From a virus, in IMG/VR virus record IMGVR_UViG_3300038549_000013, positions 1-54,252 of that record: DNA of 54,252 bases. One strand, written 5' to 3'. Below the pieces are notes generated by a model. The model was not told where the DNA came from. It did no database searches and saw only the letters and a program-made list of their open reading frames with translations. This document shows positions 18,516-51,647 of this stretch, piece by piece (the first letter of the stretch is position 1; each line of letters opens with the position of its first letter). Both the position numbers and the translations under genes were made by a program.

Positions 18516-18562
18516 GCGCGCAGCAATCCCCGATGGAATCGCTCGAACGGGGTGGGGCATGA
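18512..18562 (+). CDS. 16-codon linking ORF
   Basis: ATG overlaps the methyltransferase stop and the TGA overlaps the ATG of the HNH gene, so this tiny frame bridges the two by double ATGA coupling. The peptide MSAQQSPMESLERGGA has no motif. It probably keeps ribosomes on the message rather than making a useful product. Confidence 0.35.
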   Translation: MSAQQSPMESLERGGA

Positions 18563-18930
18563 GCAATCGCCACGGCTACAACATCAAAGCACTGCGCCTC
18601 CAATGCTGGAAGCGCCAACGCGGGCATTGCTATTTCTGCGACGCCGTGACGTGGCTTCCAGTCGATGGTAAGCCCTCGGACGCTCTCATGGCTACGCTGG
18701 AGCACCTGATCGACCTGGACCTTGGCGGCAGCTGGCACGGCTCAAACCTCGCGTGCAGCTGTTACGGATGCAACAACAAGAGGGCCGCTGAGAAGCATGC
18801 GGCTCGAAACGGGCAGCGCGACCTCATTGCGCGCTACTCAAAGCCGCGCCGCAGAGTTCGCGCGGATGATTCCTGCAACTGCGGCGACACTGGCTGCGAC
18901 GGCATGCAGTGCCAGCGGGTGCTAGCATGA
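18559..18930 (+). CDS. HNH-fold nuclease-like zinc protein
   Basis: One hundred and twenty-three residues from ATG at 18559. CYFC (24-27), TLEHLIDLDLGG (46-57, in place of the HNH catalytic His line), then ACSCYGCNNKRA (65-76) reproduce the Cys-bracketed HNH motif of phage endonucleases (C..C ... EH ... N ... C..CN). The C-terminal CNCGDTGCDGMQC adds another Cys cluster. It may cut DNA during replication or packaging. A free-standing homing nuclease is less likely, since it is in operon register with neighbours. Confidence 0.7.
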   Translation: MSNRHGYNIKALRLQCWKRQRGHCYFCDAVTWLPVDGKPSDALMATLEHLIDLDLGGSWHGSNLACSCYGCNNKRAAEKHAARNGQRDLIARYSKPRRRVRADDSCNCGDTGCDGMQCQRVLA

Positions 18931-35014: not shown

Positions 35015-35461
35015 ATGCCAGCTGGACGACCAAGCGGCTTCGACCCGGCCATGTGCGCTGTGGCGAAACTACTCACAAAGAACGGCGCCACCGATCGCGA
35101 GGTGGCTGAGAGCCTTGGAGTTTCAGAGAGCACCGTCCACATCTGGAAGCGCGAGCATCCAGAATTCCTACAGTCCCTAAGGCTGGGTAAGGACGAGGCT
35201 GACGATCGTGTCGTCCAGAGCCTTTACCGTCGAGCTACAGGCTACAGCTTCGACAGCGAGAAGATCTTCCCGCCCAAGACCGGCAAGAAGCCAATCCGAG
35301 TCCCCTACGTCGAGCACATCCCTCCCGACGTGACAGCATGCATTTTCTGGCTCAAGAACCGCCGCCGCGAGGAGTGGCGCGATCGGCATGAACTGACATC
35401 GCCGGATGCGGTGTCTTTGCTGGACGTGCTCAAAGCGTTGGCAGAGAGGCTGCCGGTATGA
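35015..35461 (+). CDS. terS: terminase small subunit
   Basis: One hundred and forty-eight residues. GRPSGFDPAMCAVAKLLTKN, GATDREVAESLGVSESTVHI (HTH), WKREHPEFLQSLRLGKDEAD, then YVEHIPPDVTACIFWLKNRR and EEWRDRHE give the phage small-terminase plan. It recognises phage DNA at pac or cos and feeds it to the large subunit three genes on. The position immediately before terL agrees. Confidence 0.85.
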   Translation: MPAGRPSGFDPAMCAVAKLLTKNGATDREVAESLGVSESTVHIWKREHPEFLQSLRLGKDEADDRVVQSLYRRATGYSFDSEKIFPPKTGKKPIRVPYVEHIPPDVTACIFWLKNRRREEWRDRHELTSPDAVSLLDVLKALAERLPV

Positions 35462-35604
35462 GCATCGCTGCTTGGCCAACATCCGCCGTACAGAGCGCAG
35501 TGCAAGGCAGGCATAACTCTTTCATGAGCGGATCGATGTATGGCCGGCCCGTGTATCTCGCAATCGTCCAGGGGAGTCAGCGATGCCCGCCAAGCGCAAA
35601 GTAA
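35458..35604 (+). CDS. possible 48-codon ORF
   Basis: ATG overlaps the terS stop (ATGA) and the frame runs into the start of the next gene, overlapping it by 22 bases. The composition is Ser/Gly/Tyr-rich with no motif. Start context suits coupling, but the peptide is not convincing by itself. Confidence 0.35.
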   Translation: MSIAAWPTSAVQSAVQGRHNSFMSGSMYGRPVYLAIVQGSQRCPPSAK

Positions 35605-35933
35605 CCGATGGCCACGCCCAGCTGTTCGCGTTGGTGTTCTTTGCTCGCCAGCAGATCCCAACGGACAAGGAGCTCGCGAAGCTCTCGGGCTGTGCTCCTG
35701 AGACCGTGCGCAACTACATGCGCATGATGAGACAAATGTCTGTCGGTTCGCGTGCGGCGCCGGCAGGTACGATGTCGATCGATGGCTGCCTTGCCGAACT
35801 CAGTAATCACACCCGAGGTCCAGAAATGCCTGGACCGCTGGTACCCATTGGCCGCAGCAGGGCAGACGCTCGAGAGCGGGCTGCGCGGGCATCCGAGACA
35901 GGATGCGCTGGTCAGGGAGCAGCGGCGGTTTAA
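35583..35933 (+). CDS. HTH protein overlapping terL
   Basis: One hundred and sixteen residues from ATG at 35583 (GGGGAG six bases upstream). Residues 1-50 are an HTH (DGHAQLFALVFFARQQIPTD, KELAKLSGCAPETVRNYMRM). The remaining part overlaps the large-terminase frame by 152 bases and has shadow-like composition, so the ancestral gene may have ended sooner. It might regulate terminase translation or act with terS. Confidence 0.5.
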   Translation: MPAKRKVTDGHAQLFALVFFARQQIPTDKELAKLSGCAPETVRNYMRMMRQMSVGSRAAPAGTMSIDGCLAELSNHTRGPEMPGPLVPIGRSRADARERAARASETGCAGQGAAAV

Positions 35934-37584
35934 GGTCGTCCCTGCTGGGCGGCGTTGCCTAGAGGCGGGCACGCTGGTTGCGACTCCAAGCGGACCACTA
36001 CCTATCGAGCTGCTGCGCGTTGGTGATGCCGTCATCGGCTACCAGGACGGACGCAAGCAAACGACGGTGGTCACGGCAGTGTGGGACAACGGCCGGCAGA
36101 CTGTCTTCCCTATCTACGATGGTGAGTCAAAGGTCCTGGCGGCCACCGAGACGCACAAGCTATGGGCTTGCCACGAAGACGGCTCGTACTTCGAGCGCGT
36201 CCCAGTCAATCGCCTCGCGAATCATCTTGTGCTCAACGTCGATGGGTTTGCGACTCGCCTTACCGTTGGCGCAGTCCCCCATGTTGCGCAGACCTACGAC
36301 ATCACTGTAGGCAACGACAGCAACCTGTACTGCCTCGCCAACGGCATCGTCACAAGTAACAGCGGCAAGACTGAGCGAGCCAAGCGCTACATCGCGCGCG
36401 AAGCCTTGCGCACGCCAGGAATGTATTTCATCGGCGCCCCGACCCACGACCAGGTGAGGCGCATTTACTGGGCCGATATGAAGCTGCTGTGCTTCGCCGC
36501 GCTTCTTGGCCCGCGATCCATCAGCGAGGTAGATCTCACGATCAAGCTGCCCAACGGCTCGCTGATCTGCCTGATTGGATTCGACAAGCCCGAGCGATTC
36601 GAGGGCGTCCCATGGGATGGCGGCATCATTGACGAGGTGGCGGACCTCAAGACACGCGCGTGGCCTGAGAACATCGCGCCGGCCCTGGATACGGTGGATC
36701 CAAGCAAGCCGAATCGTCGCGCATGGGCGTGGCTGATTGGCGTGCCGGACGGTCTGAATCACTACTACGACCTTGCCGAGTACGCGCGTACCAGCGGTGA
36801 TGCGGACTGGGGCATCTATCACTGGAAGTCGAGCGAGATTCTGCCGGCCGATGTGATCGATGCCGCCAAGCGCCGCATGAGCGCGCGCCAGTTCCGTCAG
36901 GAATACGAGGCGGCATTTGAAGGCGCGAGCGGTCGTATTTACGAGGATTACGGCGACGGCAACCTGACCACCGAGGAATTACAGCGGCACGAGCCGATCG
37001 CATGGATGCACGACTTCAACTACACCCCGCTGTCGAGCGCCATCGGCGCGGTTCGCGGTGGCTCCCTGTATCTGATGGATGAGATCGTGCTGGAGTCTGC
37101 GGTAGCCCGGCAAGCGGCTGAGGAGTTCGCCGAGCGCTACAAGGACCACGAGAACAAGACCGTGACCGTGTATGGAGATCCGGCGGGCAAGGCTGGCGAG
37201 AAGCACGGGCAGGTCTCCAACTACACCGCCATCGAGGCGTATCTGCGAGAGCGCGGTTGGAGCGTGAGCCGCAAGGTCAAAGCTGCGGCGCCAGCCATTC
37301 GCGACCGGCAGAACGCGGTGCGCGCCAAGATCTGCAACGCCGTCGGCCATCGCAATCTCTTCTGCAATCCCAACCGCGCGAAATGGGCGCACAAGGGATT
37401 GAGCACGGTACAGGTCAAAGAGGGCTCGACGTTCCTGGAGGACGACAAGAGTCAGTACCAGCACATCACGACGGCGATCGGCTACTGCGTGGACTACGAG
37501 TGGCCGGTGTTGATCGACGCCAATATCAAGCCGCAGATCGTGGTGCCAGTGCCGAGCGTGAGCCACTTCGGGAGAAATCGATGA
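35782..37584 (+). CDS. terL: terminase large subunit precursor containing an intein
   Basis: Six hundred residues from ATG at 35782; 465 after splicing. N-extein 1-58 (ending VVPAGRR), intein 59-193, C-extein 194-600 beginning SGKTERAKR. Rejoined, AGRR+SGKT is the Walker A P-loop; GGIIDEVADL is Walker B. The RNase-H nuclease domain shows FNYTPLSSAIGAVRGG (first Asp nearby), VYGDPAGK and QYQHITTAIGYCVDYE. The enzyme pumps DNA into the prohead and cuts it. Since the intein splits the P-loop, unspliced protein should have no ATPase activity. Confidence 0.9.
   Translation: MAALPNSVITPEVQKCLDRWYPLAAAGQTLESGLRGHPRQDALVREQRRFKVVPAGRRCLEAGTLVATPSGPLPIELLRVGDAVIGYQDGRKQTTVVTAVWDNGRQTVFPIYDGESKVLAATETHKLWACHEDGSYFERVPVNRLANHLVLNVDGFATRLTVGAVPHVAQTYDITVGNDSNLYCLANGIVTSNSGKTERAKRYIAREALRTPGMYFIGAPTHDQVRRIYWADMKLLCFAALLGPRSISEVDLTIKLPNGSLICLIGFDKPERFEGVPWDGGIIDEVADLKTRAWPENIAPALDTVDPSKPNRRAWAWLIGVPDGLNHYYDLAEYARTSGDADWGIYHWKSSEILPADVIDAAKRRMSARQFRQEYEAAFEGASGRIYEDYGDGNLTTEELQRHEPIAWMHDFNYTPLSSAIGAVRGGSLYLMDEIVLESAVARQAAEEFAERYKDHENKTVTVYGDPAGKAGEKHGQVSNYTAIEAYLRERGWSVSRKVKAAAPAIRDRQNAVRAKICNAVGHRNLFCNPNRAKWAHKGLSTVQVKEGSTFLEDDKSQYQHITTAIGYCVDYEWPVLIDANIKPQIVVPVPSVSHFGRNR
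35956..36360 (+). other. mini-intein inside terL Walker A
   Basis: A 135-codon in-frame insertion. It starts with CLEAGTLVATPSG (block A, nucleophile Cys), has ATETHKLWA (block B, T-x-x-H), and ends YDITVGNDSNLYCLANG (block F) and IVTSN (block G), followed by Ser of the C-extein. There is no homing endonuclease domain. The residue before the terminal Asn is Ser instead of the usual His, which is seen in some working inteins but can slow splicing. Confidence 0.9.
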
Positions 37585-38297: not shown

Positions 38298-38797
38298 GTC
38301 CGAGGCAGTTTCTCGAACGAAACGTGATTGGCATGGGCGGGGTAGTCCCTGCAGGCTGGCAGTATGCTGGCATGTCATGTCGGTATGACATTACGATGCA
38401 TCGACACGTCATCGAGCTTGATGGAGACGTGATTTGCGAAGCACCAGGACACACCGGCATTTGGCAGTGGTGTTCCCATGGTCTAACGGATCATCAAAGC
38501 AAGGCGCTCGACTCTAACGAGCACCTGATTCCAGGACCTGTACAGAAGCCCGAAGGCTTCGACCTGCGCGAGAAGCGCGCATCGAAGAATGGCAGGGCGA
38601 GCGATTGGACGCCGGCCGATGCGGTCTACGAGGCAAGTCGCGCTATCAAAGACAAGGAAGTGAGCGAGCTGGTGGTGTACTGGTGGGAGAAGGATCCCGA
38701 GACCGGCGATCGATTCCTCAAGTTCTGCAACGCCACTAGCAGCCGGCCTGAGCACTCATACCTGCTGCAAAAAGCGCTGGCACAGGTCATCGGATGA
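38294..38797 (+). CDS. phage hypothetical protein
   Basis: One hundred and sixty-seven residues. The first half has Trp/His-rich turns (CEAPGHTGIWQWCSHGLTDH); the second is mixed (WTPADAVYEASRAIKDKEVS, ELVVYWWEKDPETGDRFLKF). ATGA overlap with the portal gene. No family identified. Confidence 0.55.
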   Translation: MSPRQFLERNVIGMGGVVPAGWQYAGMSCRYDITMHRHVIELDGDVICEAPGHTGIWQWCSHGLTDHQSKALDSNEHLIPGPVQKPEGFDLREKRASKNGRASDWTPADAVYEASRAIKDKEVSELVVYWWEKDPETGDRFLKFCNATSSRPEHSYLLQKALAQVIG

Positions 38798-40983
38798 GCA
38801 TCTACGACCGCATTACCGGCGCCGCGAAGGCTCTCTTCGGCAAAGAGAAGGAGAAGCCAGCGCCCGGCACGAAGGCCGCCAAATGGGCCGAGGTTCATGC
38901 TCGTGCGCTCCATGGATTTCGGTCCTCATGGAATGCCACGTGGGAACAGCGACGCCAGTCCTTGGAGGACCGCAAGTTCGGCACGATTGCGGGCGCACAG
39001 TGGTCGGGCCATGCGTTCGAGTTGCAGTTCGAGAACAAACCGCGGCTCGAAGTGAACAAGGTGCATCTCGCCGTGGTGCGCGTCATCAATGAGTACCGAA
39101 ACAACCGCATAGACGTGCTGTTCGCCCCGAAGACCGGCGAGAAGGCGGACAAGATCTCGGATACCTGCGCATCGCTCTACAGAGCCGATATGGAGGACTC
39201 GCTGGCCGAGGAGTCATTCGATACGGGCTTCGAGGAAGCGGCGCTCGGCGGGCTTGGTGCGTGGCGCCTGCGTGCCGTTTACGAGGACGACGAGGACGCA
39301 GACAACGACTGCCAGCGGATGACGCTGGAGCCGATCCAGGACGCCGACCAGCTGGTGTTTTGGGATGCCGACTGCCGCACGCAGGACAAGTCACGCTGCA
39401 AGCGCTGGTGGGTGCTGAATCCGATGACTCGCGATGCCTACCGCGAGGAGCATGACGACGATCCAGCGACATGGCCCAAGGAAAGCTGGAACACCGACGG
39501 CTTCGAGTGGACCACGCCCGATATCGTCTATGTCGCCGAGTACTACGAGCTCGAAGAGACTAAGGATACGGTCGAGATCTGGGAGCAACCGGCGACCGGT
39601 GAGCAGGTTCGCAAGATCAAGAGCAAGCTCGATAGTCAGGTGCTGGAAGAGGGCGAGATGAGCGCCCGCGAACAGCTGGAGGCCAGTGGCTATGTGCTGA
39701 TCGACGAGAAGCGCACGAAGCGACGTCGTATCCACAAATGGCTGATGTCTGGCAATGGTGTGCTGGAGGACTGCAAGTATCTCCCCGGCAAGATCCCGCC
39801 CGTCATCACGGTGTTCGGCAAGCACTGGGTGGTCGACAACCGCGAGCACTGGCAAGGCCATGTGCGACTCGCTAAGGATGCGCAGCGGCTCAAGAATGTG
39901 ATGCTTTCGAAGCTCGCGGAGATCGCCGGCAAGTCGAGCGTGCCGAAGCCGATCCTGCACCCCGAGGAAATCGCCGGCCACCAGAAGATGTGGTCCGAGG
40001 ACAACATCAAGGACTATCCGTATGCGCTGATCAATCCCCTGCGCGATGTTTCCGGTAATCCGCTGTTCGGCCGGCAGATCACGAACACACAGCCGCCCTC
40101 GATCCCGGAGGCGCTCGCGGCCCTCCTGCAGATCACTGAACAGGACCTCAAGGATATCCTGGGCAACCAGCAGGAAGGCGAGCAGCTGCAGCCCAACGTC
40201 AGCGGCAAGCTGATGGAGATGATCCAGGACAAGCTGGACATGCAGGCGTTCGTCTACATCGACAACATGAAGAAGTCGGTGCGCTGGACTGGGCAGGCGT
40301 GGCTGTCGGCCGCGAAAGAGATCTACGTTGAGGAAGGCCGCAAGATGAAGGGCGTCGACCGCAAGGGCGAGCCGATGCCGATCACGATCGGCCAAGAAAC
40401 GGTGACTAAAGATGGTGCACGTGTCGCTGAGAACGACATCACCGGCGCAGAGCTCGAAGCCCGAGTCGAAGTCGGTCCGACCACGGCAAGTCGTCGCAAG
40501 GCGATCGTGAATCGACTGATGACCATGATTCAGTTCGTGGACGATCCTGAGGACCGAAAGGTCATTCTCGCGATGGCGTTCGCGAACATGGAAGGCGAAG
40601 GGCTACAGGATGTGCGCCAGTACTTCCGCAAGCGCATGGTTCGGATGGGCATTGTCGAGCCGACCAAGGAAGAGGCTGCGGATCTTGCGAAAGAGCAGCA
40701 GTCACAGAAGCCTGATCCGAATGAAGTCTACCTGCTCGGCGAGGCTGAGCGGGCGCAGGCCGAAGCGATGGAGAAGCGCGCCAATGTCGTGCTCAAGGTT
40801 GAGCAGGCCAACAAGGCAAAGGCCGAGACCGCCGAGATTGTCAGCAACATCGACCAGCAGCAGCAGGACCAGGCGTTTGAGATCATCGACCGCGTGGCGC
40901 CGAAGTTGACCGCGGCAGCGGAGCAGCCGCCAGCTGTGAATGCTCCAGAGACTGCACCAGCAACAACGCTGAGAGACCAATAA
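38794..40983 (+). CDS. P22 gp1-type portal protein
   Basis: Seven hundred and twenty-nine residues, close to the P22 portal (725). Telling blocks are FELQFENKPRLEVNKVHLAV, RVINEYRNNRIDVLFAPKTG, DTGFEEAALGGLGAWRLRAV and YLPGKIPPVITVFGKHWVVD. The C-terminal 130 residues are helical and Gln/Ala-rich, as in the P22 barrel. Twelve copies form the DNA entry ring at one vertex and receive the gp4-type factor below. It follows terL by five small genes. Confidence 0.9.
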   Translation: MSIYDRITGAAKALFGKEKEKPAPGTKAAKWAEVHARALHGFRSSWNATWEQRRQSLEDRKFGTIAGAQWSGHAFELQFENKPRLEVNKVHLAVVRVINEYRNNRIDVLFAPKTGEKADKISDTCASLYRADMEDSLAEESFDTGFEEAALGGLGAWRLRAVYEDDEDADNDCQRMTLEPIQDADQLVFWDADCRTQDKSRCKRWWVLNPMTRDAYREEHDDDPATWPKESWNTDGFEWTTPDIVYVAEYYELEETKDTVEIWEQPATGEQVRKIKSKLDSQVLEEGEMSAREQLEASGYVLIDEKRTKRRRIHKWLMSGNGVLEDCKYLPGKIPPVITVFGKHWVVDNREHWQGHVRLAKDAQRLKNVMLSKLAEIAGKSSVPKPILHPEEIAGHQKMWSEDNIKDYPYALINPLRDVSGNPLFGRQITNTQPPSIPEALAALLQITEQDLKDILGNQQEGEQLQPNVSGKLMEMIQDKLDMQAFVYIDNMKKSVRWTGQAWLSAAKEIYVEEGRKMKGVDRKGEPMPITIGQETVTKDGARVAENDITGAELEARVEVGPTTASRRKAIVNRLMTMIQFVDDPEDRKVILAMAFANMEGEGLQDVRQYFRKRMVRMGIVEPTKEEAADLAKEQQSQKPDPNEVYLLGEAERAQAEAMEKRANVVLKVEQANKAKAETAEIVSNIDQQQQDQAFEIIDRVAPKLTAAAEQPPAVNAPETAPATTLRDQ

Positions 40984-41847
40984 ATGCCCACTGAGACCGA
41001 GACCCCTGAGACGGAAACCACGGAAGTAGTACCGGCCGAAGTTCAGGCCGAAGCCGAGCCTGCCACTCAACAGGAGGGAGAACCGGCAGACGCCGAAGCT
41101 TCAGAGCTTGTTGTGTCGTTGGGCGATGAGCCGAGCGAGCCTCCGCCCAAGGAGGAAAGCAGCGTCATTCGTACGCTGCGGCAGATCACCAAGAGTCAGG
41201 CCAAGGAACTGAAGGAATTGCGCCAGCGCGCGGCGCCGGCCGAGGATTCGCCCACGGCGAAGTTGCGAGCCGAGCCGACGATGGAAGCTCACGACTTCGA
41301 CGCTGATGCTTTCAAGGAGGACTGGCGCAAGTGGAACTCCGAGAAGGCTGCATTGGAACGCGCAGCTGAGGACAAGAAGCGATCGAAGCAGCAGGCGGAA
41401 GAGAGCGAGCGCGCGGCATGGAATGCCAAGCTCGAGGTTCACGCCAAGCGCAGGGCAGAGCTTCCCGTGAAGGACTACGATGCTGCCGAAGAGACAGTCT
41501 TTGACCTGTTGGACGAAACACAGCGCGGGATCGTCATCAACTATAGCGACAACTCAGCGTTGCTGGTATACGCTCTCGGTCGTAACCCTGCGAAGCTGTC
41601 CGATCTCGCGGCGTGCAAAGACCCAGGTGCGTTCATCAAAGCGATGACCAAACTGGAGAGCAATTTGAAGACGTCCAAACGCCGTCCTGAGACCAAGCCC
41701 GAGACGCGCATCGAAAGAGGTGCGGCCGGGGTTTCCACCAGCAGTGCATCGGAGCTCGAGAAGCTTCGTGCTGAGGCCGAAAAGACCGGGAATTACACCA
41801 AGGTCATGGCCTACAAAGCTCGGTTGAAGACTCAGGCGGCGAAGTAA
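40984..41847 (+). CDS. scaffolding protein
   Basis: Two hundred and eighty-seven residues. Acidic Thr/Glu/Pro-rich first 55 residues, a charged helical middle (KEDWRKWNSEKAALERAAED) and a basic C-terminal helix (YTKVMAYKARLKTQAAK), as in P22 gp8, whose C-terminal helix-turn-helix binds coat. Lies between portal and coat, as in P22. Lost from the mature particle by family knowledge. Confidence 0.75.
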   Translation: MPTETETPETETTEVVPAEVQAEAEPATQQEGEPADAEASELVVSLGDEPSEPPPKEESSVIRTLRQITKSQAKELKELRQRAAPAEDSPTAKLRAEPTMEAHDFDADAFKEDWRKWNSEKAALERAAEDKKRSKQQAEESERAAWNAKLEVHAKRRAELPVKDYDAAEETVFDLLDETQRGIVINYSDNSALLVYALGRNPAKLSDLAACKDPGAFIKAMTKLESNLKTSKRRPETKPETRIERGAAGVSTSSASELEKLRAEAEKTGNYTKVMAYKARLKTQAAK

Positions 41848-41848
41848 C

Positions 41849-41880
41849 GCTTCGCTCTCAGGCATCTCCCTGAGCGAAGC
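41849..41880 (+). terminator. hairpin between scaffold and coat genes
   Basis: GCTTCGCT-CAGG pairs with CCTGAGCGAAGC (12 pairs, two-base CT bulge on the left, six-base loop). No T-run follows, so it is more likely an mRNA stabiliser or processing site that sets the coat:scaffold ratio than a true terminator. The coat gene starts 28 bases on. Confidence 0.45.
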
Positions 41881-41908
41881 CCGAACAACTTCGCGCAGGG
41901 TCAAATAG

Positions 41909-43183
41909 ATGTCGAATGATTTCAGCAAAGAGGAACGCGTAGCCTTCGAGTCGATCCTCGAAGGGTTCCAAGATGCGCTCATCCTGAGTCGCATGGTCAC
42001 CAAGTACAACGTCGATCCTCAGATGAGTGAGCGATCCTCGGATGTGATCTGGCGCCCGATGCCTTACATCGCGCGGTCTTTCGCCGGCCGCGATCAGACG
42101 GCGAACTTCCAGAAGAACACCCAGCTGTCCGTGCCGAGCACAATCGGATTCGAGCGCAGTTCGCCGTGGACCATGAGCGCCACCGAGCTGCGTGATGCTA
42201 TCCAAGAGGGCAGCATTGGCAAGGCCGCATTCCAGAAACTGGCCTCCGACATCAACACGGCTGTGATGGATGTGGCGAGTGCCCAAGGCACGTGCGTCGT
42301 CACCAGCACGACCTCGGCTGTCGGGTTCAACGACATCGCACTTGCCGAGGCGGTCTTCAACGAGATCGGCGTGCAGACTCAGGATCGGCACATTGCCCTG
42401 TCCACGCGAGATTACAACGGCATGGCGAGCAATCTCGCGAACCGCGCGGACATCTCGGCCCAACTGTCTCAGGAGGCATGGCGCCGGTCCTACGTCGGCC
42501 AGGTGTGCTCCTTCGAGACATGGAAGCTCGACTACGCCAACCGCATCGCCGCCGCAGCCGGCGGTGGCTCGATCACGATCAGCACTCTGACTGCGAGCGC
42601 CAACAACTACGTTCCGCGCAGCACCCGTACGGCTGTCACCGGCGAGTCGACCAACGTCGACAACCGATTCCAGCAGGTCACGGTCTCGAGCACCACGAGC
42701 GTTGCCGCTGGTGACTGCTTCACCATCGCCACTTGCGAAGCCGTGCACCTGATCACCAAGCGCGCCACGGGTGTCCTCAAGACCTTCCGAGTGATCTCGG
42801 TCGACAGCTCCACTACGATGACCATCAGTCCGCCGATCATCAGCGGAGCCGGTGGCACCGATGCGGAACTGCAGTACCAGAACGTTTCCATCGGCACTCG
42901 CGCATCGAACTCGGCCATCGTCTTCATCAACTACGATGCGGCGGCCATCAACCCGTTCTGGCACAAGGATGCGATCGAGCTCCGGCCGAGCAGCTACGTG
43001 GTGCCAGAAAACAGCGGCGTCAGCGTGATGCGCTCGACCACCGACAACGGCATTGAGGTGGTGTGGACGAAGGCCTTCGACCAGAAGACTTTCGAGACCA
43101 ACTTCCGCGCTGACGTGCGGTTCGGCGTCACCAACAAGCAGCCGGAAATGACCGGCATCATGCTGTTCAGCCAGACCCCGTAA
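41909..43183 (+). CDS. P22 gp5-type major coat protein
   Basis: Four hundred and twenty-four residues (P22 gp5 is 430). Residues about 20-150 carry the HK97-fold N-arm and E-loop (WRPMPYIARSFAGRDQTANF), and about 220-345 is a beta-barrel-like insertion corresponding in position to the P22 I-domain (ATCEAVHLITKRATGVLKTF, TMTISPPIISGAGGTDAELQ). The end IVFINYDAAAINPFWHKDAIE ... FGVTNKQPEMTGIML is typical of the family; I judge this by pattern. Assembles the icosahedral shell with the scaffold. Confidence 0.85.
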   Translation: MSNDFSKEERVAFESILEGFQDALILSRMVTKYNVDPQMSERSSDVIWRPMPYIARSFAGRDQTANFQKNTQLSVPSTIGFERSSPWTMSATELRDAIQEGSIGKAAFQKLASDINTAVMDVASAQGTCVVTSTTSAVGFNDIALAEAVFNEIGVQTQDRHIALSTRDYNGMASNLANRADISAQLSQEAWRRSYVGQVCSFETWKLDYANRIAAAAGGGSITISTLTASANNYVPRSTRTAVTGESTNVDNRFQQVTVSSTTSVAAGDCFTIATCEAVHLITKRATGVLKTFRVISVDSSTTMTISPPIISGAGGTDAELQYQNVSIGTRASNSAIVFINYDAAAINPFWHKDAIELRPSSYVVPENSGVSVMRSTTDNGIEVVWTKAFDQKTFETNFRADVRFGVTNKQPEMTGIMLFSQTP

Positions 43184-43211
43184 TCCGGGCTTTCATTCAG
43201 AGGTTCAACAC

Positions 43212-43856
43212 ATGGCATCCGGATACGTATACCCGCTGGCTACCAAGACCATCTCGGTTGCGGCGTCGGCGAAGATCGGACTCAAATCACAGGGCAAGTT
43301 CCGCGTGTTCCAGCGCGCGGGCTACCCGAACGTGCCGCCCTCGCGCGTCTTGCTCGGAGAGTACAGCAACACCACTGTCATTCTTGGGACGTTCTCTACC
43401 TCGGTCGCGACCGACATCGACGTGGAGGCAGTCGAGGCCCAGGTTTTCTACGACACGGGCACGGCGCCGGACGTGAGGCAGCTTGATATCGAATACCAGC
43501 CGACTCCAAGCGCCAAGACCGTTGCTGTCACTCTCACCGCGGCAGAGTTGCTGACCAAGATCGTTACCGGTACCCACACCACCGGCTCCACGGCGGCCTA
43601 CACGCTGCCGACTGGTACGCTCATGGATGCGGCGGTCGACTTCGACGTGAACGATAGCTTCGACTGGACCCTGATCAATCTGTCGGCGGCGGCGGCCGAT
43701 ACGATCACCGTCACTGCCGGTACCGACCATACCGTGGTTGGCACGATGGTGTGTCAGTCGGCTCACTCCACGACAGGACTCATCCACGGCAATGCGCTGC
43801 AGTTGCGCACCCGTAAGACCGCGGCGAATACCTTCGTCACCTATCGGCTGGGCTGA
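43212..43856 (+). CDS. small capsid-associated structural protein
   Basis: Two hundred and fourteen residues directly behind the coat gene. The first 95 residues have an immunoglobulin-like feel (FRVFQRAGYPNVPPSRVLLG); the rest, TAAELLTKIVTGTHTTGSTA and SFDWTLINLSAAAADTITVT, repeats a beta module common among phage structural proteins. Position and fold suggest a decoration protein; inference. Confidence 0.6.
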   Translation: MASGYVYPLATKTISVAASAKIGLKSQGKFRVFQRAGYPNVPPSRVLLGEYSNTTVILGTFSTSVATDIDVEAVEAQVFYDTGTAPDVRQLDIEYQPTPSAKTVAVTLTAAELLTKIVTGTHTTGSTAAYTLPTGTLMDAAVDFDVNDSFDWTLINLSAAAADTITVTAGTDHTVVGTMVCQSAHSTTGLIHGNALQLRTRKTAANTFVTYRLG

Positions 43857-43861
43857 TCCTT

Positions 43862-43879
43862 GGGGCGCTTCGGCGCCCC
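43862..43879 (+). terminator. GC-rich UUCG hairpin
   Basis: GGGGCGC-TTCG-GCGCCCC: a perfect 7-pair stem with a C(UUCG)G tetraloop, among the most stable RNA hairpins. It is followed by CCTCTTATG rather than a T-run. It lies eight bases before the start of the gp4-like gene, which lacks a normal ribosome site. Confidence 0.6.
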
Positions 43880-43886
43880 GCCTCTT

Positions 43887-44372
43887 ATGGGCTGGACCAA
43901 GCGCCAATTTCTGGAAGCGGCCTACGAAGAGATAGGCCTCGCCGGGTACATCTTCGACCTGTCTCCAGAGCAGCTACAGACCGCGGTCCGGAAGATGGAT
44001 TCAATGGTCGCGTCATGGAATGCGCTCGGCATCAGAATTGGCTACCCGGTCGCCAGTAATCCCGCCTCGATCGACATCGATCAGGAGACAGGCGTACCTG
44101 ACTCTGCAAACGAAGCCATCTACTGCGGCCTCGCAATGCGCCTGGCGGGTGGCCTTGGTAAGCAAGTGACCGCACAGACCGCGGCGACGGCTCACAATGG
44201 CTATACGGCAATGCTCACGCGCGCTGTGCAGGCCATCCCGGTGCAGATGCCGCGCACGATGCCATCGGGCCAGGGCAATAACCGCTACCTTCAGGGGCGG
44301 GTTTTCGTGAATCCGCCATCTGAGTCGATCGATACCGGGCTCGATGGCCAAATCGATGACATCGAGGTTTGA
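43887..44372 (+). CDS. P22 gp4-type tail accessory (head-completion) protein
   Basis: One hundred and sixty-one residues (P22 gp4 is 166). MGWTKRQFLEAAYEEIGLAG, SPEQLQTAVRKMDSMVASWN, NEAIYCGLAMRLAGGLGKQV and AMLTRAVQAIPVQMPRTMPS match the family well. It plugs onto the portal after packaging and carries gp10 and the tailspike. In P22 gp4 also has muramidase activity; not claimed here. There is no ribosome site between the hairpin and the ATG, so translation may depend on coupling. Confidence 0.85.
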   Translation: MGWTKRQFLEAAYEEIGLAGYIFDLSPEQLQTAVRKMDSMVASWNALGIRIGYPVASNPASIDIDQETGVPDSANEAIYCGLAMRLAGGLGKQVTAQTAATAHNGYTAMLTRAVQAIPVQMPRTMPSGQGNNRYLQGRVFVNPPSESIDTGLDGQIDDIEV

Positions 44373-44852
44373 ATGGGCACGCCGATCAATCTACTCACGG
44401 CACTCGATGAGCTCGCCGCAGCCGATGCGCTGGTGGTCTACTCATCTTCCAATGGTGACGCACGCCGAGCCTCGCTGACGACGTTGCTGTCGTTCCTGGA
44501 GGATAACCAGAACTTGGCAGCGCGACCGTTTTACACCCAGTACAGCGCGCCAGCAGCTGGCAACACGGTGCAGGTTGCAGCATCCTTCAGCGATGCCGAC
44601 GGATCGGAAAACGTGCACCTTATTTTGACTCCGGCCGGCACTCTCGCGACGCTGACCATCAAGCTCCCGCTGTCGAGCGCCTGCGTGGACGCGCAGGAAA
44701 TCATCGTCAACTGCACGCAGATCGTGACCACGCTTTCGTGGGATGCGAATGGAGCCTCGGATATCGTTGGAGAGCCGGCCACGTTGGCGGCGAATGCGTT
44801 TCTGCGGTTGAAGTATGACGAACTGACTACGAACTGGTATCGCATCGGGTGA
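44373..44852 (+). CDS. phage structural hypothetical protein
   Basis: One hundred and fifty-nine residues, one base after the previous stop. PINLLTALDELAAADALVVY is helical; the rest (FSDADGSENVHLILTPAGTL, ATLTIKLPLSSACVDAQEII) is beta-rich and Asp/Thr-heavy. Sits between the gp4- and gp10-type genes, where some P22-like phages have an extra gene. Role unknown. Confidence 0.55.
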   Translation: MGTPINLLTALDELAAADALVVYSSSNGDARRASLTTLLSFLEDNQNLAARPFYTQYSAPAAGNTVQVAASFSDADGSENVHLILTPAGTLATLTIKLPLSSACVDAQEIIVNCTQIVTTLSWDANGASDIVGEPATLAANAFLRLKYDELTTNWYRIG

Positions 44853-44855
44853 CGC

Positions 44856-46271
44856 ATGCAAATCCCGGTGTTGAGCGGGATCGCGAGCGACTCTAACGCA
44901 GAGTTTCGCACTTCCTACCCTGTCAATCTGATTCCTGTTCCAAAGCAAAGCGGAATTTCTCAGGGGTATCTGCGTCCAGCTGACGGCATTGTTCACCACG
45001 GCACAGGTCCAGGAATCGATCGCGGCGGGATCAACTGGAACGGCATTTGCTACCGCGTGATGGGCAGTAAATTTGTCTCTGTTGCAGAGAATGGCACGGT
45101 GACCACCATTGGTAGCGTGGCCGGTGGCTCAGATAGGGCCAAGTTCGATTATTCGCCGGATCGTCTCGCAATAGTCTGCGGCGGCAGCGCCTATTACTAC
45201 AACGGCACGCTTACTCAGATTACAGATTCTGATCTTGGCGCAGTCCATGATGTGATATTCGTCGACGGCTATTTCATGTTCCCAAATAGCCAGTTCCTGA
45301 TTGTCACAGAGCTTGCGGACCCGACATCCATTGATCCGCTGAAGTATGGGTCTGCGGAAACCGATCCCGACGAGATTCAAGGGCTACTCAAGGTGCGCAA
45401 TGAGCCGTGGGCGATTGGCCGCTACACATGCGAGGTTTTCCAAAACATTGGCGGAGACAGCGAGTTTCCGTTTGCGAGAATCGAAGGCGCCATGATTTCG
45501 CGCGGTTCGATTGGTCGAAACTCTCACTGTAAGTTTGGCCCGACATCGATTGCGTTCCTTGGCTCCGGGCGCGGCGAGTCTCCATCTGTGTATCTCGCAG
45601 AGAACTCAATCTCGCAGCGCATTGCCACGCGCGAGATAGATACCATACTCCAGGGCTACACCGAGGCGCAGCTGACTCAGTCGATTCTAGAACAGCGTTT
45701 CGACAAGGGCCATCAGCATCTGTATGTGCACCTGCCGGATCGCACGCTGGTCTATGACGCTGCCGGTTCTGCTGCAGCCCAGGAGCCAGTATGGTTCGTG
45801 CTTGTTTCGACCCTTGGCGGATTCTCGCAGTACCGTGCCCGCAATCTGGTGTGGTGCTACGACCGCTGGTTGTGCGGCGATCCTTTGGAACTGAGGGTTG
45901 GATATCTCAGCAATGAACTATCGAGTCATTACGGGGACCACGTGCGATGGGAGTTCGCGACCATCATCATCTACAACGACGGCGCATCCGGGATCATGCA
46001 CGAGATTGAGCTCGTTGCGTTGACCGGCCGTGTTGCCTTCGGCCTCGATCCTTACATTCGGACCAGCTACAGCAAGGACGGGCTTACTTGGAGCCAGAAT
46101 AGAGCCATAAAAGTTGGCGCTCGAGGGGAGCGCGACAAGAGGTTGGTCTGGCGCCAGCAGGGCACGATTGGGCATTTTCGCTCGCAGCGATTCCAAGGTG
46201 ACAGCCAGTCATTTGCCAGCTTTGCAAGGCTTGAGGTGCAAGTCGAGCCGCTTGCCTACGCAACCTCCTAA
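44856..46271 (+). CDS. P22 gp10-type tail hub / packaged-DNA stabilisation protein
   Basis: Four hundred and seventy-one residues (P22 gp10: 472). MQIPVLSGIASDSNAEFRTS, PVNLIPVPKQSGISQGYLRP, YFMFPNSQFLIVTELADPTS, and RDKRLVWRQQGTIGHFRSQR are in line with the gp10 family. It forms a hexameric ring below gp4 and closes the head. It follows the family order portal, scaffold, coat, gp4, gp10. Confidence 0.88.
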   Translation: MQIPVLSGIASDSNAEFRTSYPVNLIPVPKQSGISQGYLRPADGIVHHGTGPGIDRGGINWNGICYRVMGSKFVSVAENGTVTTIGSVAGGSDRAKFDYSPDRLAIVCGGSAYYYNGTLTQITDSDLGAVHDVIFVDGYFMFPNSQFLIVTELADPTSIDPLKYGSAETDPDEIQGLLKVRNEPWAIGRYTCEVFQNIGGDSEFPFARIEGAMISRGSIGRNSHCKFGPTSIAFLGSGRGESPSVYLAENSISQRIATREIDTILQGYTEAQLTQSILEQRFDKGHQHLYVHLPDRTLVYDAAGSAAAQEPVWFVLVSTLGGFSQYRARNLVWCYDRWLCGDPLELRVGYLSNELSSHYGDHVRWEFATIIIYNDGASGIMHEIELVALTGRVAFGLDPYIRTSYSKDGLTWSQNRAIKVGARGERDKRLVWRQQGTIGHFRSQRFQGDSQSFASFARLEVQVEPLAYATS

Positions 46272-47266
46272 TGGTTGACGGACTGACACCAGATCCGAAG
46301 CCGCTCAGTCGTGAGCAGCTTTCCGTATTCCTCAAGAATCCTTTGGCGGTGCGCACATTCGAGAGAATGATGGCGCGCGTAGGCGTCGAAATGCCAGCAG
46401 AAATGCTGGCGTTTTTGCGGAAGGACACACTGACCGCGCGCGGCGACATGTTTGTTCGTGATGCGACTGATGTGACGCGCCTGCCGCTCGGATCGAATCT
46501 CAGGCTGCTGCGATCGAATGGTCTCGATGCAATATGGGAATCGATATCTCCGACAATCACTCTTGGCACAGATCTGAGTGGGAGCCTGACTCTCACTGAC
46601 TTGTCAGGCGGTGATCTGAACTCCACCATTGTTGCCAATGCAGTCAGCAACGAGAAGCTCGCCGACATGGCTGAGGGCACCATCAAGGGCAGGGCCGAAG
46701 GCACTGGAACTGGTGACCCGACTGACCTCACGCCATCCCAAGTTGTAGCGATTATTGACGGCGAGGCTATTACGGGCCTGAGATTTCTGCCTACTAGTTC
46801 CAGCGCAGGGACAAATTCACTGTATCTCTCGGCCGCGAATACTCCGGCTATCTCGAGCAATTCAACGCTAGCGATGTCCTGGGACAGTTCGCAGAACGCA
46901 CTCGGGAAGGCCGCCATACTCTCCGACAGCGCCACAGCAGGCGTGGGCTATGCGACTGGTGCCGGTGGGACGGTCACCCAGATCACGAGCCGTACGACTG
47001 GGGTGACTATCAATAAGGTGTCCGGAGCGATTACGCTAGTGTCCGCTGCAGGCACTGCGACATGGCAGTCCTTCACGGTCACGAATTCGGCGGTAGCGGC
47101 TACCGACGTTATCGTGGTCAACCAGAAGTCGGGCACCGACAAGAACATGATTCATGTGACCGCAGTTGGCGCCGGCAGCTTTGAAGTCACCTTCGCAACC
47201 ACCGGCGGGACCACTGTGGAGCAGCCGGTTTTCAGCTTCGCGGTCATTAAGGCTGTGGCGGCATGA
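46271..47266 (+). CDS. tail-tip structural protein at the gp26 position
   Basis: Three hundred and thirty-one residues, one base overlapping gp10. The N-terminal 60 are helical. The C-terminal 105 (VGYATGAGGTVTQITSRTTG, VTINKVSGAITLVSAAGTAT, FAVIKAVAA at the end) form a beta module I recognise from many phage tail or fibre proteins. It occupies the place of the P22 needle gp26 but lacks the long coiled coil, so it is not a simple homolog. Confidence 0.6.
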   Translation: MVDGLTPDPKPLSREQLSVFLKNPLAVRTFERMMARVGVEMPAEMLAFLRKDTLTARGDMFVRDATDVTRLPLGSNLRLLRSNGLDAIWESISPTITLGTDLSGSLTLTDLSGGDLNSTIVANAVSNEKLADMAEGTIKGRAEGTGTGDPTDLTPSQVVAIIDGEAITGLRFLPTSSSAGTNSLYLSAANTPAISSNSTLAMSWDSSQNALGKAAILSDSATAGVGYATGAGGTVTQITSRTTGVTINKVSGAITLVSAAGTATWQSFTVTNSAVAATDVIVVNQKSGTDKNMIHVTAVGAGSFEVTFATTGGTTVEQPVFSFAVIKAVAA

Positions 47267-47358
47267 TTTCGTTGGTGATAGTATGTGGGATAGCTGAGCG
47301 CCATACCATGGCACCCCTCGCATCCAGCGGCGATTCCAACCGGAGTCCGTCCGCTTGA
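47263..47358 (+). CDS. 31-codon ORF bridging two structural genes
   Basis: ATG overlaps the previous stop (ATGA) and the TGA overlaps the next TTG start (TTGA). The peptide begins MISLVIVCGIAERHTMAPLA, hydrophobic at first. It occupies the 88-base gap and was found by eye. A coupling role is the simplest reading. Confidence 0.4.
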   Translation: MISLVIVCGIAERHTMAPLASSGDSNRSPSA

Positions 47359-47789
47359 GCGAAATCCTCCAAGGTCGATCGCTATCACTGTCGCAAGACG
47401 GCAATGGCGTCGTGCTGTCTCCTCCGCCAAGCTTCCCGGGAATCGATTACAGCGCGATTGAGCTCGCCATGAGGGCCCATGAGCAGGCCGAGTGGGAGTC
47501 CACCCACGAGCTATCCGATGGCCTGTATCTGCGCCGCACGCGCATCCCGGCGGGCGTCATTGTGCTCGGCCGGAAACATCGTAAGCCCTGCGTGAACCTG
47601 CTCCTGGAGGGCAGTGTGATCCTGTTCGCCCCGAATGGCGCGTCCACCGTGCTGAATGCGCCGCGTTGCTTCACCGGCCCGGTCGGGTCTCAGAAACTGG
47701 CATTCACGCTCACCGATATCGTGTGCGCCAATGTGTTTTCGGTCGATGGCCAGACCATCGAAGAGATAGAAACCGAGGTATTCCATTGA
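47355..47789 (+). CDS. cupin-like phage protein
   Basis: One hundred and forty-four residues from TTG at 47355. YLRRTRIPAGVIVLGRKHRK, PCVNLLLEGSVILFAPNGAS look like the G(X)5HX...G core strands of cupins, although the second His pair is not evident, so catalysis is doubtful. It sits where P22 has gp14. A structural or assembly role is inferred. Confidence 0.5.
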   Translation: MSEILQGRSLSLSQDGNGVVLSPPPSFPGIDYSAIELAMRAHEQAEWESTHELSDGLYLRRTRIPAGVIVLGRKHRKPCVNLLLEGSVILFAPNGASTVLNAPRCFTGPVGSQKLAFTLTDIVCANVFSVDGQTIEEIETEVFH

Positions 47790-48424
47790 GCGGTGTAGCC
47801 ACAGCAGTCACCGCCGGTGTAGTGGGCGTTGCCGGAGCCGTTGCCCAGGATAGAGCGGCCTCGAAAGCAGCCAAGGCTCAGAAGAACGCGAGCAACGCCG
47901 CGATTGCCAACGAGCAGGATCAGTTCGCGGCGATCCGTGAGTTGCTAGCTCCGTACGTCCAGGCGGGAGACAAGGCTACGGAGTCACAGCTAGCCCTGCT
48001 GGGATTGCTCGGTGATGATCAGCAGCGCAAGGCGATCATGAATGTCCAACAGGGCTCGGAGTATTCGACGCTGATCAAGCAGGGTGAGGAAGCGATCCTG
48101 CAGAACGCCTCTGCAACTGGCGGGCTCCGCGGAGGTAACACACAGGCCGCGCTGAGCGAATTCCGCCCGCAATTGCTGAATCAACTGCTGAACGAGCGAT
48201 TTTCAAAGCTCGGTGATCTCGCGGGCCGCGGACAAGCGTCGGCAGCCGGGCAGGCATCACTCCAGCAGCAGTCAGCGGCTAACGTGAGCAACCTTATCGG
48301 ATCCATCGGACAGGCCGGCGCGGGGCGTGCGATAGCCCAGGGGAACGCCATTGCTGGCGGACTTGGTGCTGTCGGCGATTCGGTGGGAACTCTTGCGACT
48401 CTCAGGCTGCTGAAGAGTTTCTGA
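47786..48424 (+). CDS. gp7-type DNA ejection protein
   Basis: Two hundred and twelve residues from TTG at 47786 (TTGA overlap). A hydrophobic N-terminus (VATAVTAGVVGVAGAVAQDR) is followed by long Ala/Gln helices; QGEEAILQNASATGGLRGGN is a signature of phage DNA-transfer proteins. By P22 knowledge, gp7 leaves the head with the DNA and helps bridge the cell envelope. Neighbours in the order gp7, gp20, gp16 support it. Confidence 0.75.
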   Translation: MSGVATAVTAGVVGVAGAVAQDRAASKAAKAQKNASNAAIANEQDQFAAIRELLAPYVQAGDKATESQLALLGLLGDDQQRKAIMNVQQGSEYSTLIKQGEEAILQNASATGGLRGGNTQAALSEFRPQLLNQLLNERFSKLGDLAGRGQASAAGQASLQQQSAANVSNLIGSIGQAGAGRAIAQGNAIAGGLGAVGDSVGTLATLRLLKSF

Positions 48425-48425
48425 G

Positions 48426-49739
48426 ATGCCACAGCCATTCGACTACAGCCTCACCGTCCAAAACCCCGCAGCAAGCGTGACGCAGGGCATCCAGAAGGGT
48501 ATAGGACTAGCCCAGGGGCTAACGCAGGTCAAGCAGGCGCGCACGGAAGCAACGGCCGCCGCGCAGGCGAATGAGCGGAAGACGGCTTTCAATGCGGACC
48601 TCGCGAAGATCTCTGCGGCCCCGACTGCCGCCGGATACGCGTCCCTGGCGGCGAGATATCCCGAATTCGGCAAGGTCCTGAAGGAGGGCTATGACGTACT
48701 CGGCGCTGAGGAGCAAAAGCAAAACCTCGCAGACGCGTCCTCAGTGTATTCGGCGCTGGCTGCCGATGAGCCTGAATACGCCGAGGAGCTTCTGACGAAG
48801 CAGGCAGAGGCACTGCGCAATGGTGGTCGTGAGCAGGAAGCGAAAGCGCGGGAGGACTTGGCTAGGCTCGTCAAGCTGAGCCCCGATACAGCGAGAACCT
48901 CTGCTGGACTCTATCTATCAACCGTGATGGGTCCTGAGAAATTCGTCGAGGGCTTCAGCAAGCTCGAGAGCGATCGACGTTCGCGCGACCTGGAAGGCGC
49001 TACATTGACCGAGGCCGAAGCAAAGGCGGATAAGGCGGCGGTGGCCGCGAAGTTCGCTGAGTCGGAGGCGGCTTTAGAGCTGCAAAAGAAAGGATACGAC
49101 ATCGAGAAGATTAAGAATGACATTCAGGTGTCGCGCGCCAATGTTCGGATTGCAGCGATGAATGCTGAACTGGCCAAGGAGTTGAACGCGCAGCGTGCAG
49201 AACTTCTGCGCTCACGCATTGCCGACGCGCAAATCAAGCGCGACGCAGACGTGCGCGATCGCGTGGCCAATGCTGAGTCGGCACGTGGACAGATTGATAA
49301 CTTTCTGAACACTGCCGATAGAGCACTGGCTACCCCATTCAACGTCATCGAGAATGCAACCGGCTCTGTTGATTCGCGGCTTATCACCTTGCGCCAGTCC
49401 ACCGCTGACTTTGAGGAATTGATTGACACGCTGGGCTCTCAGGCATTTCTTGCTCAGGCGCCGAACCTCAAGGGCATGGGGGCACTCTCCAATGCTGAGG
49501 GCGAGAAGCTGCAAACGGCACTGCAAAACCTCAAGCTGCGTCAAAGCCCGGAGCGATTGGTCAACAACCTTCGGGAGGCGCAGCGTTTGTTGCTGAAAGC
49601 TAGGGACAACATCTCGACCCGTTATGGCGTCCCGGAGACTGTCCCAGACACTCCCGCAGCAGCGCCGAGCGACCAGGAGACGAATGCACTGCTCGATCAA
49701 TACCTGTTCGGCGGCGAGCCGATCGCGGGCGACGGGTGA
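48426..49739 (+). CDS. gp20-type DNA ejection protein
   Basis: Four hundred and thirty-seven residues (P22 gp20: 471). Ala/Gln/Glu-rich and helical throughout, with strong heptads at about 185-290 (AAVAAKFAESEAALELQKKG). PAASVTQGIQKGIGLAQGLT near the start recalls other virion ejection proteins. It forms part of the ejection apparatus by synteny rather than clear sequence motif. Confidence 0.65.
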   Translation: MPQPFDYSLTVQNPAASVTQGIQKGIGLAQGLTQVKQARTEATAAAQANERKTAFNADLAKISAAPTAAGYASLAARYPEFGKVLKEGYDVLGAEEQKQNLADASSVYSALAADEPEYAEELLTKQAEALRNGGREQEAKAREDLARLVKLSPDTARTSAGLYLSTVMGPEKFVEGFSKLESDRRSRDLEGATLTEAEAKADKAAVAAKFAESEAALELQKKGYDIEKIKNDIQVSRANVRIAAMNAELAKELNAQRAELLRSRIADAQIKRDADVRDRVANAESARGQIDNFLNTADRALATPFNVIENATGSVDSRLITLRQSTADFEELIDTLGSQAFLAQAPNLKGMGALSNAEGEKLQTALQNLKLRQSPERLVNNLREAQRLLLKARDNISTRYGVPETVPDTPAAAPSDQETNALLDQYLFGGEPIAGDG

Positions 49740-49742
49740 TCT

Positions 49743-51647
49743 GTGCCGAGCCGTCGCGAGCAAATCGCCATCGCATTAAAGCGCGCGCACCAAGCTGGTG
49801 ATTCAAACGCCGCACGCAAGCTGGCTGCGGCCTACAACCAGACCGATGGGGCGGCTCCAGAGTACTTGGGCGCCCTGCCCGGAGAAGCGACCGACCCGGG
49901 ATTGTTCGAAAAGTCGCTGCCGGAGCCAACACGGGCAATCGACGATCCGCTTGGCGCTGCAGTAGGCACGGTCGAGGCCGCAGGAACTCTCACGACGGGG
50001 GCCACCACTGGAGCGGCCGGCATGGTCGGGGGATTCCTCAAGGGGGTTGCTGAATCCATTCTGCGCGGCGACTTCGGAACGCAGCAGGCCGGCGAACTCA
50101 TTGCCAAAAGCGCTGAGAGCGGAGCACAGGCGCTGACCTATGAGCCGCGGACAGAGGCAGGCCAGCGACAGGTCGCGGCCGTGGGTGAGGCGCTGGAGCC
50201 GCTGACGCCACTGCTGGCCGTAACGCCAGTGGAAGGCGCAGCGGCTGCCGCTGGTATCGCAGCTGCAGCCAGTCCGGTGTCAGCAGGTGCGCGGGCAACG
50301 GCGAGCAAGGCGGCCCAGGGAGTGCGGCAAGCAATCGGCAAGACGGAGCCGAGTCCTGGCGCCGCAGGACCCAGAAGCGCTGGCGCAGCGGATGTTGGCG
50401 CTGCCACCGTGCGCGATCAGCTGGCTCGCGAACTGCCAGTTCCGATCAAGCTCACTCAGGGACAAAAAACACGTGAATTCGGACAGCTGCAATTCGAGCG
50501 TGAGACAGCCAAGAACGCCAAGGTCGGCGGGGCAATGCGCGAGAGGCTCGATGAGCAAAACGCGCAGCTCGTGCAGAACATCGACGCTTTCATCGAGGGA
50601 ACAGGCGGTGTTGCGCCGGATCTACGAAGCGTTGGCCTGAGCGTCGAAAAGGGTATTCGGGTCAAGGCGCTGCGGGACAAGCGTCGAATTCGGACGCTCT
50701 ACAAGGAGGCCGAAAAGGCAGGCGAGCTGGAAACCACGGTCCAGCTGGATGCGCTCGCGAAGTATCTCGATGACTCCCGTTCGCTCGACGGCACTGCGAA
50801 AAACCTTCCAGCAGTCCGCGCGGAAGCAAAGCGTCTTGGAATTCTCGCAGAAGGGCCAGACGGCAAGCTTACCGCGCAGCCTACTACGCTCGCTAATGGT
50901 GAATTGCTGCGAAAATTCATCAACAAGGCGACCGGCAACGACAAGACGGAGCAGCTACAGGCGGTGGAACTGAAGAAGGTCTATGACGCGGCCACCAAGG
51001 ACGCAGGCGGTGCCCTCTACAAGCGCGCACGGGATGCTTACTCGAAGTATCAGGACGATTTCGTAAATCAAGTCGCAGTCAAAAACATCCTAGGGACCAA
51101 GCGCGGGAGTTCGGATCGCGCCATCGCCTATGAGGACGTGCTCAATCGCACGGTCGTGTCTCCTTCCACCTCTCTAGATCAGCTGGAGGGTGTTTTCCGA
51201 CTCCTGAACAAGAGCGCGCCCGGAAAACAGGCGATCGCTGACTTGAAGGCAGGAACTTTGGAGTGGTTGAAGGGCGAGGCTACGAAGAATGTCGGCACCA
51301 CCAGCGCTGGCGACAAGGTATTCAGCGCAGCCGGCTTCAACAAGGCTATCACCCAGCTCGACAAGTCCGGGAAGCTTGATTTTGTCTTCGGCAAGAAGGG
51401 CGCCGAGCAGCTGCGCACCCTAAATGAGATCGCGCAGGATGTGCTGACCGTACCGGCTGGAGCCGTGAACACCAGCAACACGGCGAGCGCCTTAGCGTCC
51501 ATGGCAGATTTGGTTTTTGCCTCCGGGACTGGTATTCCGGCCCCGCTCGCCAGCGCCATTAAGCTGCTCCGAGGTCAGATCAAGGATGCCAAATTGAAAA
51601 AGCGACTGGATGAGTCACTGGGTAATAGCTCTGGTACCGATCAATGA
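49743..51647 (+). CDS. gp16-type DNA ejection protein
   Basis: Six hundred and thirty-four residues from GTG at 49743 (P22 gp16: 609). Residues 70-200 contain several hydrophobic Ala/Gly helices (TTGATTGAAGMVGGFLKGVA, LLAVTPVEGAAAAAGIAAAA), consistent with membrane insertion. The rest is charged helices. In P22, gp16 lets DNA cross the inner membrane. It is the last of the three ejection genes, ATGA-coupled to the tailspike. Confidence 0.7.
   Translation: MPSRREQIAIALKRAHQAGDSNAARKLAAAYNQTDGAAPEYLGALPGEATDPGLFEKSLPEPTRAIDDPLGAAVGTVEAAGTLTTGATTGAAGMVGGFLKGVAESILRGDFGTQQAGELIAKSAESGAQALTYEPRTEAGQRQVAAVGEALEPLTPLLAVTPVEGAAAAAGIAAAASPVSAGARATASKAAQGVRQAIGKTEPSPGAAGPRSAGAADVGAATVRDQLARELPVPIKLTQGQKTREFGQLQFERETAKNAKVGGAMRERLDEQNAQLVQNIDAFIEGTGGVAPDLRSVGLSVEKGIRVKALRDKRRIRTLYKEAEKAGELETTVQLDALAKYLDDSRSLDGTAKNLPAVRAEAKRLGILAEGPDGKLTAQPTTLANGELLRKFINKATGNDKTEQLQAVELKKVYDAATKDAGGALYKRARDAYSKYQDDFVNQVAVKNILGTKRGSSDRAIAYEDVLNRTVVSPSTSLDQLEGVFRLLNKSAPGKQAIADLKAGTLEWLKGEATKNVGTTSAGDKVFSAAGFNKAITQLDKSGKLDFVFGKKGAEQLRTLNEIAQDVLTVPAGAVNTSNTASALASMADLVFASGTGIPAPLASAIKLLRGQIKDAKLKKRLDESLGNSSGTDQ

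Follow-up and report, generated by a model that had tools for sequence, protein, structure and literature searches.

The large terminase subunit (TerL) is essential in tailed phages. It is also the commonest intein host in mycobacteriophages, where two insertion sites in the P-loop, TerL1-a and TerL1-b, have been described (PMC5050341). TerL1-a inteins insert at GK/T (a slash marks the splice junction throughout) and TerL1-b inteins one residue away; both interrupt Walker A and have to be removed for the ATP site to form, and the penultimate His is lacking in some class 1 inteins of these phages (PMC5050341). In cyanophage Mic1, TerL is interrupted twice, with one intein lying in the ATPase domain and the other in the nuclease domain (PMC7156551). 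Splicing as a control of DNA packaging has been proposed for such TerL inteins, that of Mic1 included (PMC5050341, PMC7156551). The literature thus already contains TerL inteins within Walker A, inteins that have lost the penultimate His, and the proposal that packaging is gated by splicing.

The window analyzed here, a 54,252-nucleotide stretch of viral DNA (IMG/VR record IMGVR_UViG_3300038549_000013), carries a class 1 mini-intein of 135 residues within Walker A of its TerL, at GRR/SGKT. This site lies three residues upstream of TerL1-a, the intein belongs to neither TerL1-a nor TerL1-b, and the mycobacteriophage TerL family differs from that of the window. The TerL of mycobacteriophage Baka, for example, reads GKG...HN/S and holds a larger intein that lacks Cys1 and has what appears to be an endonuclease region, in contrast to the class 1 window intein, which has no endonuclease. 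The extein boundary residues of Mic1 TerL are Thr and Cys (PMC7156551), whereas the window has Ser. A 194-kb viral contig encodes a TerL (L097, 2572-5631) whose intein shares the GRR P-loop context, ends NGLVT-N, and is 34% identical to one of the inteins described below (L068), but it sits at the classic site, GRRTGK/T, three residues away, and has a penultimate His and an endonuclease region. In the open literature that we searched, coverage of which is incomplete, we found no description of an intein at GRR/SGKT. New here are four endonuclease-bearing lineages at exactly this site.

The interrupted TerL gene

The TerL reading frame (35752-37584, +) is open from a GTG at 35752 (610 aa). Its likely start is the ATG at 35782, from which we compute a precursor of 600 residues and a predicted spliced product of 465 (58 + 407), the lengths given in an earlier sequence-only reading of this DNA. 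The frame runs ...RFKVVPAGRR, then CLEAGTLVATPSGP...TETH...QTYDITVGNDSNLYCLANGIVTSN, then SGKTERAKR..., so that Walker A is interrupted as PAGRR/SGKT by a block that opens with Cys1 (codon 35956-35958), closes with Asn135 (codon 36358-36360), and is followed by Ser at +1, just as that reading had it. The features of the locus are as follows.

35015-35461, + strand: terminase small subunit, upstream of TerL (phrog_309, 6.3e-41)
35782-35955, + strand: TerL N-extein, 58 aa from the ATG, ending ..VVPAGRR
35944-35955, + strand: first half of Walker A (AGRR), invariant among aligned TerL proteins
35956-36360, + strand: class 1 mini-intein, 135 aa, no homing endonuclease (Hint_2, intein_Cterm, AlphaFold2, Foldseek)
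35956-35994, + strand: block A (CLEAGTLVATPSG) with the Cys1 nucleophile; Hint_2 matches residues 1-35; kept in the sibling inteins described below
36121-36162, + strand: block B (GESKVLAATETHKL), T64-E-T-H67; T64 and H67 are invariant across five inteins
36289-36336, + strand: block F (QTYDITVGNDSNLYCL), Asp115 at F:4; Ser122 replaces the block F His
36340-36363, + strand: block G plus the +1 residue (NGIVTSN/S), with Ser134 penultimate, Asn135, and Ser+1; NCBIfam intein_Cterm
36361-36372, + strand: second half of Walker A (SGKT), opening the C-extein; invariant among aligned TerL proteins
36361-37584, + strand: TerL C-extein, 407 aa (PHROG phrog_2, terminase large subunit, 8.4e-18)
38794-40983, + strand: portal protein, downstream of TerL (phrog_156, 3.3e-119)

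By tblastn, the C-extein shares ∼60% identity with TerL proteins from Stenotrophomonas, Xanthomonas, and Pseudomonas (Nipunavirus) phages, and the matches to phage TerL begin exactly where the 135-residue block stops. The exteins resemble those of Queuovirinae/Guernseyvirinae-type phages, not P22. Judged from their family names, the genes at 38794-53545 are P22-like in appearance (portal, scaffold, head-closure Hc3, DNA ejection, and tail-spike-like genes), and next to a siphovirus-type TerL they give the packaging module a mosaic look.

We note several further observations in the window. The N-extein (35782-35955) has ∼10 residues (AAAGQTLESG) that the aligned relatives, its sister L009 among them, do not have. 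An ORF of 116 aa (35583-35933, +) overlaps the start of TerL in a different frame; its start resembles a helix-turn-helix protein, and a PHROG match for it was not found. A free-standing HNH endonuclease gene (18481-18930, +; PHROG phrog_9545, 1.8e-9; Pfam HNH below cut-off) sits downstream of a DNA methyltransferase-like ORF (17625-18515) and could be a homing gene, though it is distant from TerL.

A class 1 mini-intein by sequence and fold

Taken alone, the 135-residue block matches Pfam Hint_2 (8.6e-7) and NCBIfam intein_Cterm (7.1e-5), both over the curated cut-offs. The Pfam search of the block returned nothing else except Herpes_ORF11 (2.2e-4), which is below its cut-off and which we took as a chance match. 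An AlphaFold2 model has a Hint fold with a pLDDT of 94.8; it was built from a 21-row alignment in which the siblings were split into N- and C-terminal parts and other Hint domains were added, and an earlier model from five rows (pLDDT 49.9) was set aside. Foldseek places the Prp8 intein first (E 2.9e-8, TMq 0.81), and also returns the Npu DnaE and gp41-1 inteins (TMq 0.78 each) as well as those of Ssp DnaE and Mtu RecA. A single-sequence search against solved structures puts DnaE inteins on top, weakly (0.03-0.3), and a profile search, with a profile that also holds other Hint domains, finds the Mtu RecA intein at 5e-13. The Npu DnaE intein has the same fold and a penultimate Ser (..ASN), but it is naturally split, resides in DnaE, and keeps the block F His where the window intein has Ser122.

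Cys1, T-x-x-H, Asp115 at F:4, Asn135, Ser+1, the Hint fold, and the in-frame insertion are together those of a class 1 intein. The usual class 1 penultimate His is absent (Ser134), which is not disqualifying because in ∼5% of functional inteins that position is taken by a different residue (PMC4031507). Only a splicing domain is present: the block is too short to house an endonuclease domain, and LAGLIDADG_3 was not found anywhere in the window record. The recognizable blocks A, B (TETH), F, and G, the missing homing endonuclease, and the Ser in place of the penultimate His had all been noticed from the sequence alone, and each is borne out here. For comparison, the smallest natural intein was put at 134 aa in a 2014 review (PMC4031507).

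Other identities for the block were considered and rejected. A class 3 intein is excluded by the presence of Cys1 and by Asp115, not Cys, at F:4. A bacterial intein-like (BIL) domain does not agree with flanks that are an invariant Walker A or with Ser at +1. An assembly chimera seems improbable: both exteins come from one TerL, and GC in the intein (0.60) is near that of the exteins (0.66/0.62).

Empty and occupied sites in relatives

Alignment with five intein-free TerL proteins from phage records shows the block to be inserted, exact to the residue, between R68 and S204 (GTG numbering). The clean 135-residue gap that the sequence-only reading had expected is therefore present, although the TerL proteins that reveal it are of the Queuovirinae/Guernseyvirinae type and not, as it had supposed, from P22-like phages. 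All five of these genes, together with 54 IMG/VR loci (fetched TerL relatives whose sequence covers the insertion site), read GRR/SGKT or GRR/SGKS with no insert, and for the nearest intein-free relative, L009, extein identity is 74%. In the alignment with the five phage-record proteins, AGRR and SGKT do not vary, in line with the earlier proposal that removal of the block restores a normal P-loop.

Scanning for the intein itself and for the C-terminal junction identified four more distinct uncultivated viral lineages with an intein at exactly GRR/SGKT: L068 (= L073, L092; 360 aa), L070 (= L096; 369 aa), L072 and L074, which are two contigs with identical intein sequence (= L093 and L094; 358 aa), and L075 (= L095; 365 aa). 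These siblings are 45-54% identical to one another and 47-52% identical to the window intein. They share with it Cys1, Ser+1, the penultimate Ser, and the pattern DITVxND[T/S]NLY..VTSN/S, and all end TSN/SGKT; the same site and homologous splicing blocks make the window intein a member of this lineage. Unlike its 135 residues without an endonuclease, the 358-369 residues of the siblings include an endonuclease region; read from the alignment, LG[DN]G and AGxxDTDGS motifs stand at the usual LAGLIDADG positions in all four. In L068 the Pfam matches to LAGLIDADG_1 (8.5e-4) and LAGLIDADG_3 (5.8e-3) are both below cut-off.

The window holds the one mini-intein found at this site. No copy of it at GRR/SGKT was found in annotated phages, and the plasmid search found none. 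A DNA pattern for the N-terminal junction gave mostly chance matches, with TerL inteins only at L070 and L073, and a scan of genome contigs gave 21 loci, mostly short block A matches. The two of these that were read through, L099 (3001-4176) and L101 (3001-4212), are Verrucomicrobia proteins with three tandem Hint domains each ending HNKG, and not TerL inteins. A ribonucleotide reductase-like ORF (L098:883-5499) appears to hold two inteins. The TerL proteins of Methanomassiliicoccales virus vir335 and Rhodobacteraceae phage LS06-2018-MD07 (L007 and L008) have inteins located in the nuclease portion, ahead of the conserved [CS]xDSLRY.

On a tree built from TerL exteins, five separate changes are required to account for the five genes that carry an intein. 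The window gene, L068, L070, and L074 each group, well supported, with intein-free relatives; the position of L075 is not settled by this tree. The exteins of L070 are 29-33% identical to the others, whereas its intein is 45-48% identical. This patchy distribution and the contrast within L070 are as repeated horizontal homing would give. The window mini-intein is most simply an endonuclease-deleted member of the lineage, and the insert looks like an immobilized descendant of a selfish element because its relatives retain the endonuclease. The intein tree (seven rows) resolves no branching, the position of the mini-intein included, so that endonuclease loss, and with it the presumed direction of change, is an argument from parsimony and not proof.

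Splicing, helper histidines, and packaging

From the intact splicing residues we infer that the intein splices. Cys1 would form the N-terminal thioester, Ser+1 would attack it, and cyclization of Asn135 would free the intein and join the exteins into a 465-residue TerL with PAGRRSGKT. The unspliced precursor would be unable to form the P-loop and, because Walker A is interrupted, should lack ATPase activity. Since the broken P-loop lies in an essential gene, TerL ATPase activity very probably needs splicing, as the sequence-only reading had argued. Splicing is probably constitutive, required for packaging, and to all appearances unregulated, and the insert would persist because only an exact deletion would leave a working TerL.

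The residues that usually assist splicing are unusual throughout the lineage. The penultimate Ser is fixed in all five lineages, endonuclease-bearing ones included, and the usual block F His is Thr or Ser in all five (Ser122 in the window). The four siblings keep a His in YVLH or YCLH, reading LHxGG or LHNCG where the window intein reads LAN; here it has Ala128 and is one residue shorter, and no His is left in block F or G. The L097 intein also reads LAN, despite its penultimate His. With the assisting His residues absent, the intein could splice slowly or be impaired in C-terminal cleavage. However, neither is needed in all inteins (PMC4031507), and in mycobacteriophage inteins the penultimate His is poorly conserved, with Gly, Lys, or Ser reported in some of class 1 (PMC5050341). 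The penultimate Ser alone does not imply slow splicing, because the Npu DnaE intein, which has it, splices with a half-life of one minute or less (PMC4031507) and because the siblings share it. Since all five lineages read VTSN/S, this Ser is a trait of the lineage and not decay or tuning in the window copy.

We weighed three other readings of the block. The open frame throughout would fit an ordinary structural domain of TerL, but the residue-exact gap in every aligned intein-free relative, the Hint fold with its catalytic residues kept, and the uninterrupted Walker A left by removal make this barely credible; the sequence-only reading had named homologues carrying the segment as a normal domain as the case against it, and neither the aligned intein-free relatives nor the 54 loci carry the segment. 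It is highly improbable, too, that the intein is dead for splicing or capable of cleavage only, in a phage that is defective or uses another terminase. The missing block F and G His residues and Ala128 at the position of the sibling His point that way. Against them stand Cys1, T-x-x-H, Asp F:4, Asn135, and Ser+1, all intact, exteins that are well conserved (74% to L009) in a gene that tailed phages cannot do without, and a review in which these His residues are dispensable in some inteins (PMC4031507).

The remaining reading is that of a domesticated regulatory intein, retained for packaging timing, in which conditional splicing (redox, ATP, DNA, or temperature) withholds active TerL until late in infection. 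The insertion point within the catalytic P-loop, loss of the endonuclease with the catalytic residues intact, the lack of an assisting His in blocks F or G, and the precedent of such control, put forward for inteins in TerL and in P-loops (PMC5050341, PMC7156551), all speak for it, yet we consider it unlikely. The 54 relatives with the same gene carry no intein, so splicing-based timing is not required in the gene family; the penultimate Ser is common to the endonuclease-bearing siblings and thus did not arise in this copy to serve regulation; the stretch leading up to the splice site (FKVVPAGRR) includes no Cys able to pair with Cys1 in a simple redox trap; and homing into the gene's most conserved DNA accounts for the choice of site. 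On the same grounds, the earlier suggestion of a packaging gate set by splicing rate or redox state is not supported for this phage and is an unproven hypothesis. We likewise regard as unlikely a histidine-poor mini-intein acting as a timed switch, in which slow or conditional Asn cyclization would delay TerL ATPase and set the onset of packaging; if this were true, the ATPase would not appear until late, or unless the cell were in a particular state.

We therefore favor, with considerable confidence, a Walker A class 1 mini-intein that derives from a mobile, GRR/SGKT-specific lineage of LAGLIDADG inteins, has lost its endonuclease, and probably splices constitutively. The find leaves general knowledge of inteins or packaging unchanged. 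What it contributes is a natural mini-intein of compact size (135 aa), at a P-loop position distinct from both P-loop sites of mycobacteriophage TerL. With empty, mobile, and immobilized stages at one site, the GRR/SGKT set is tractable for studying the loss of intein mobility and useful for asking whether the loss of helper histidines alters splicing.
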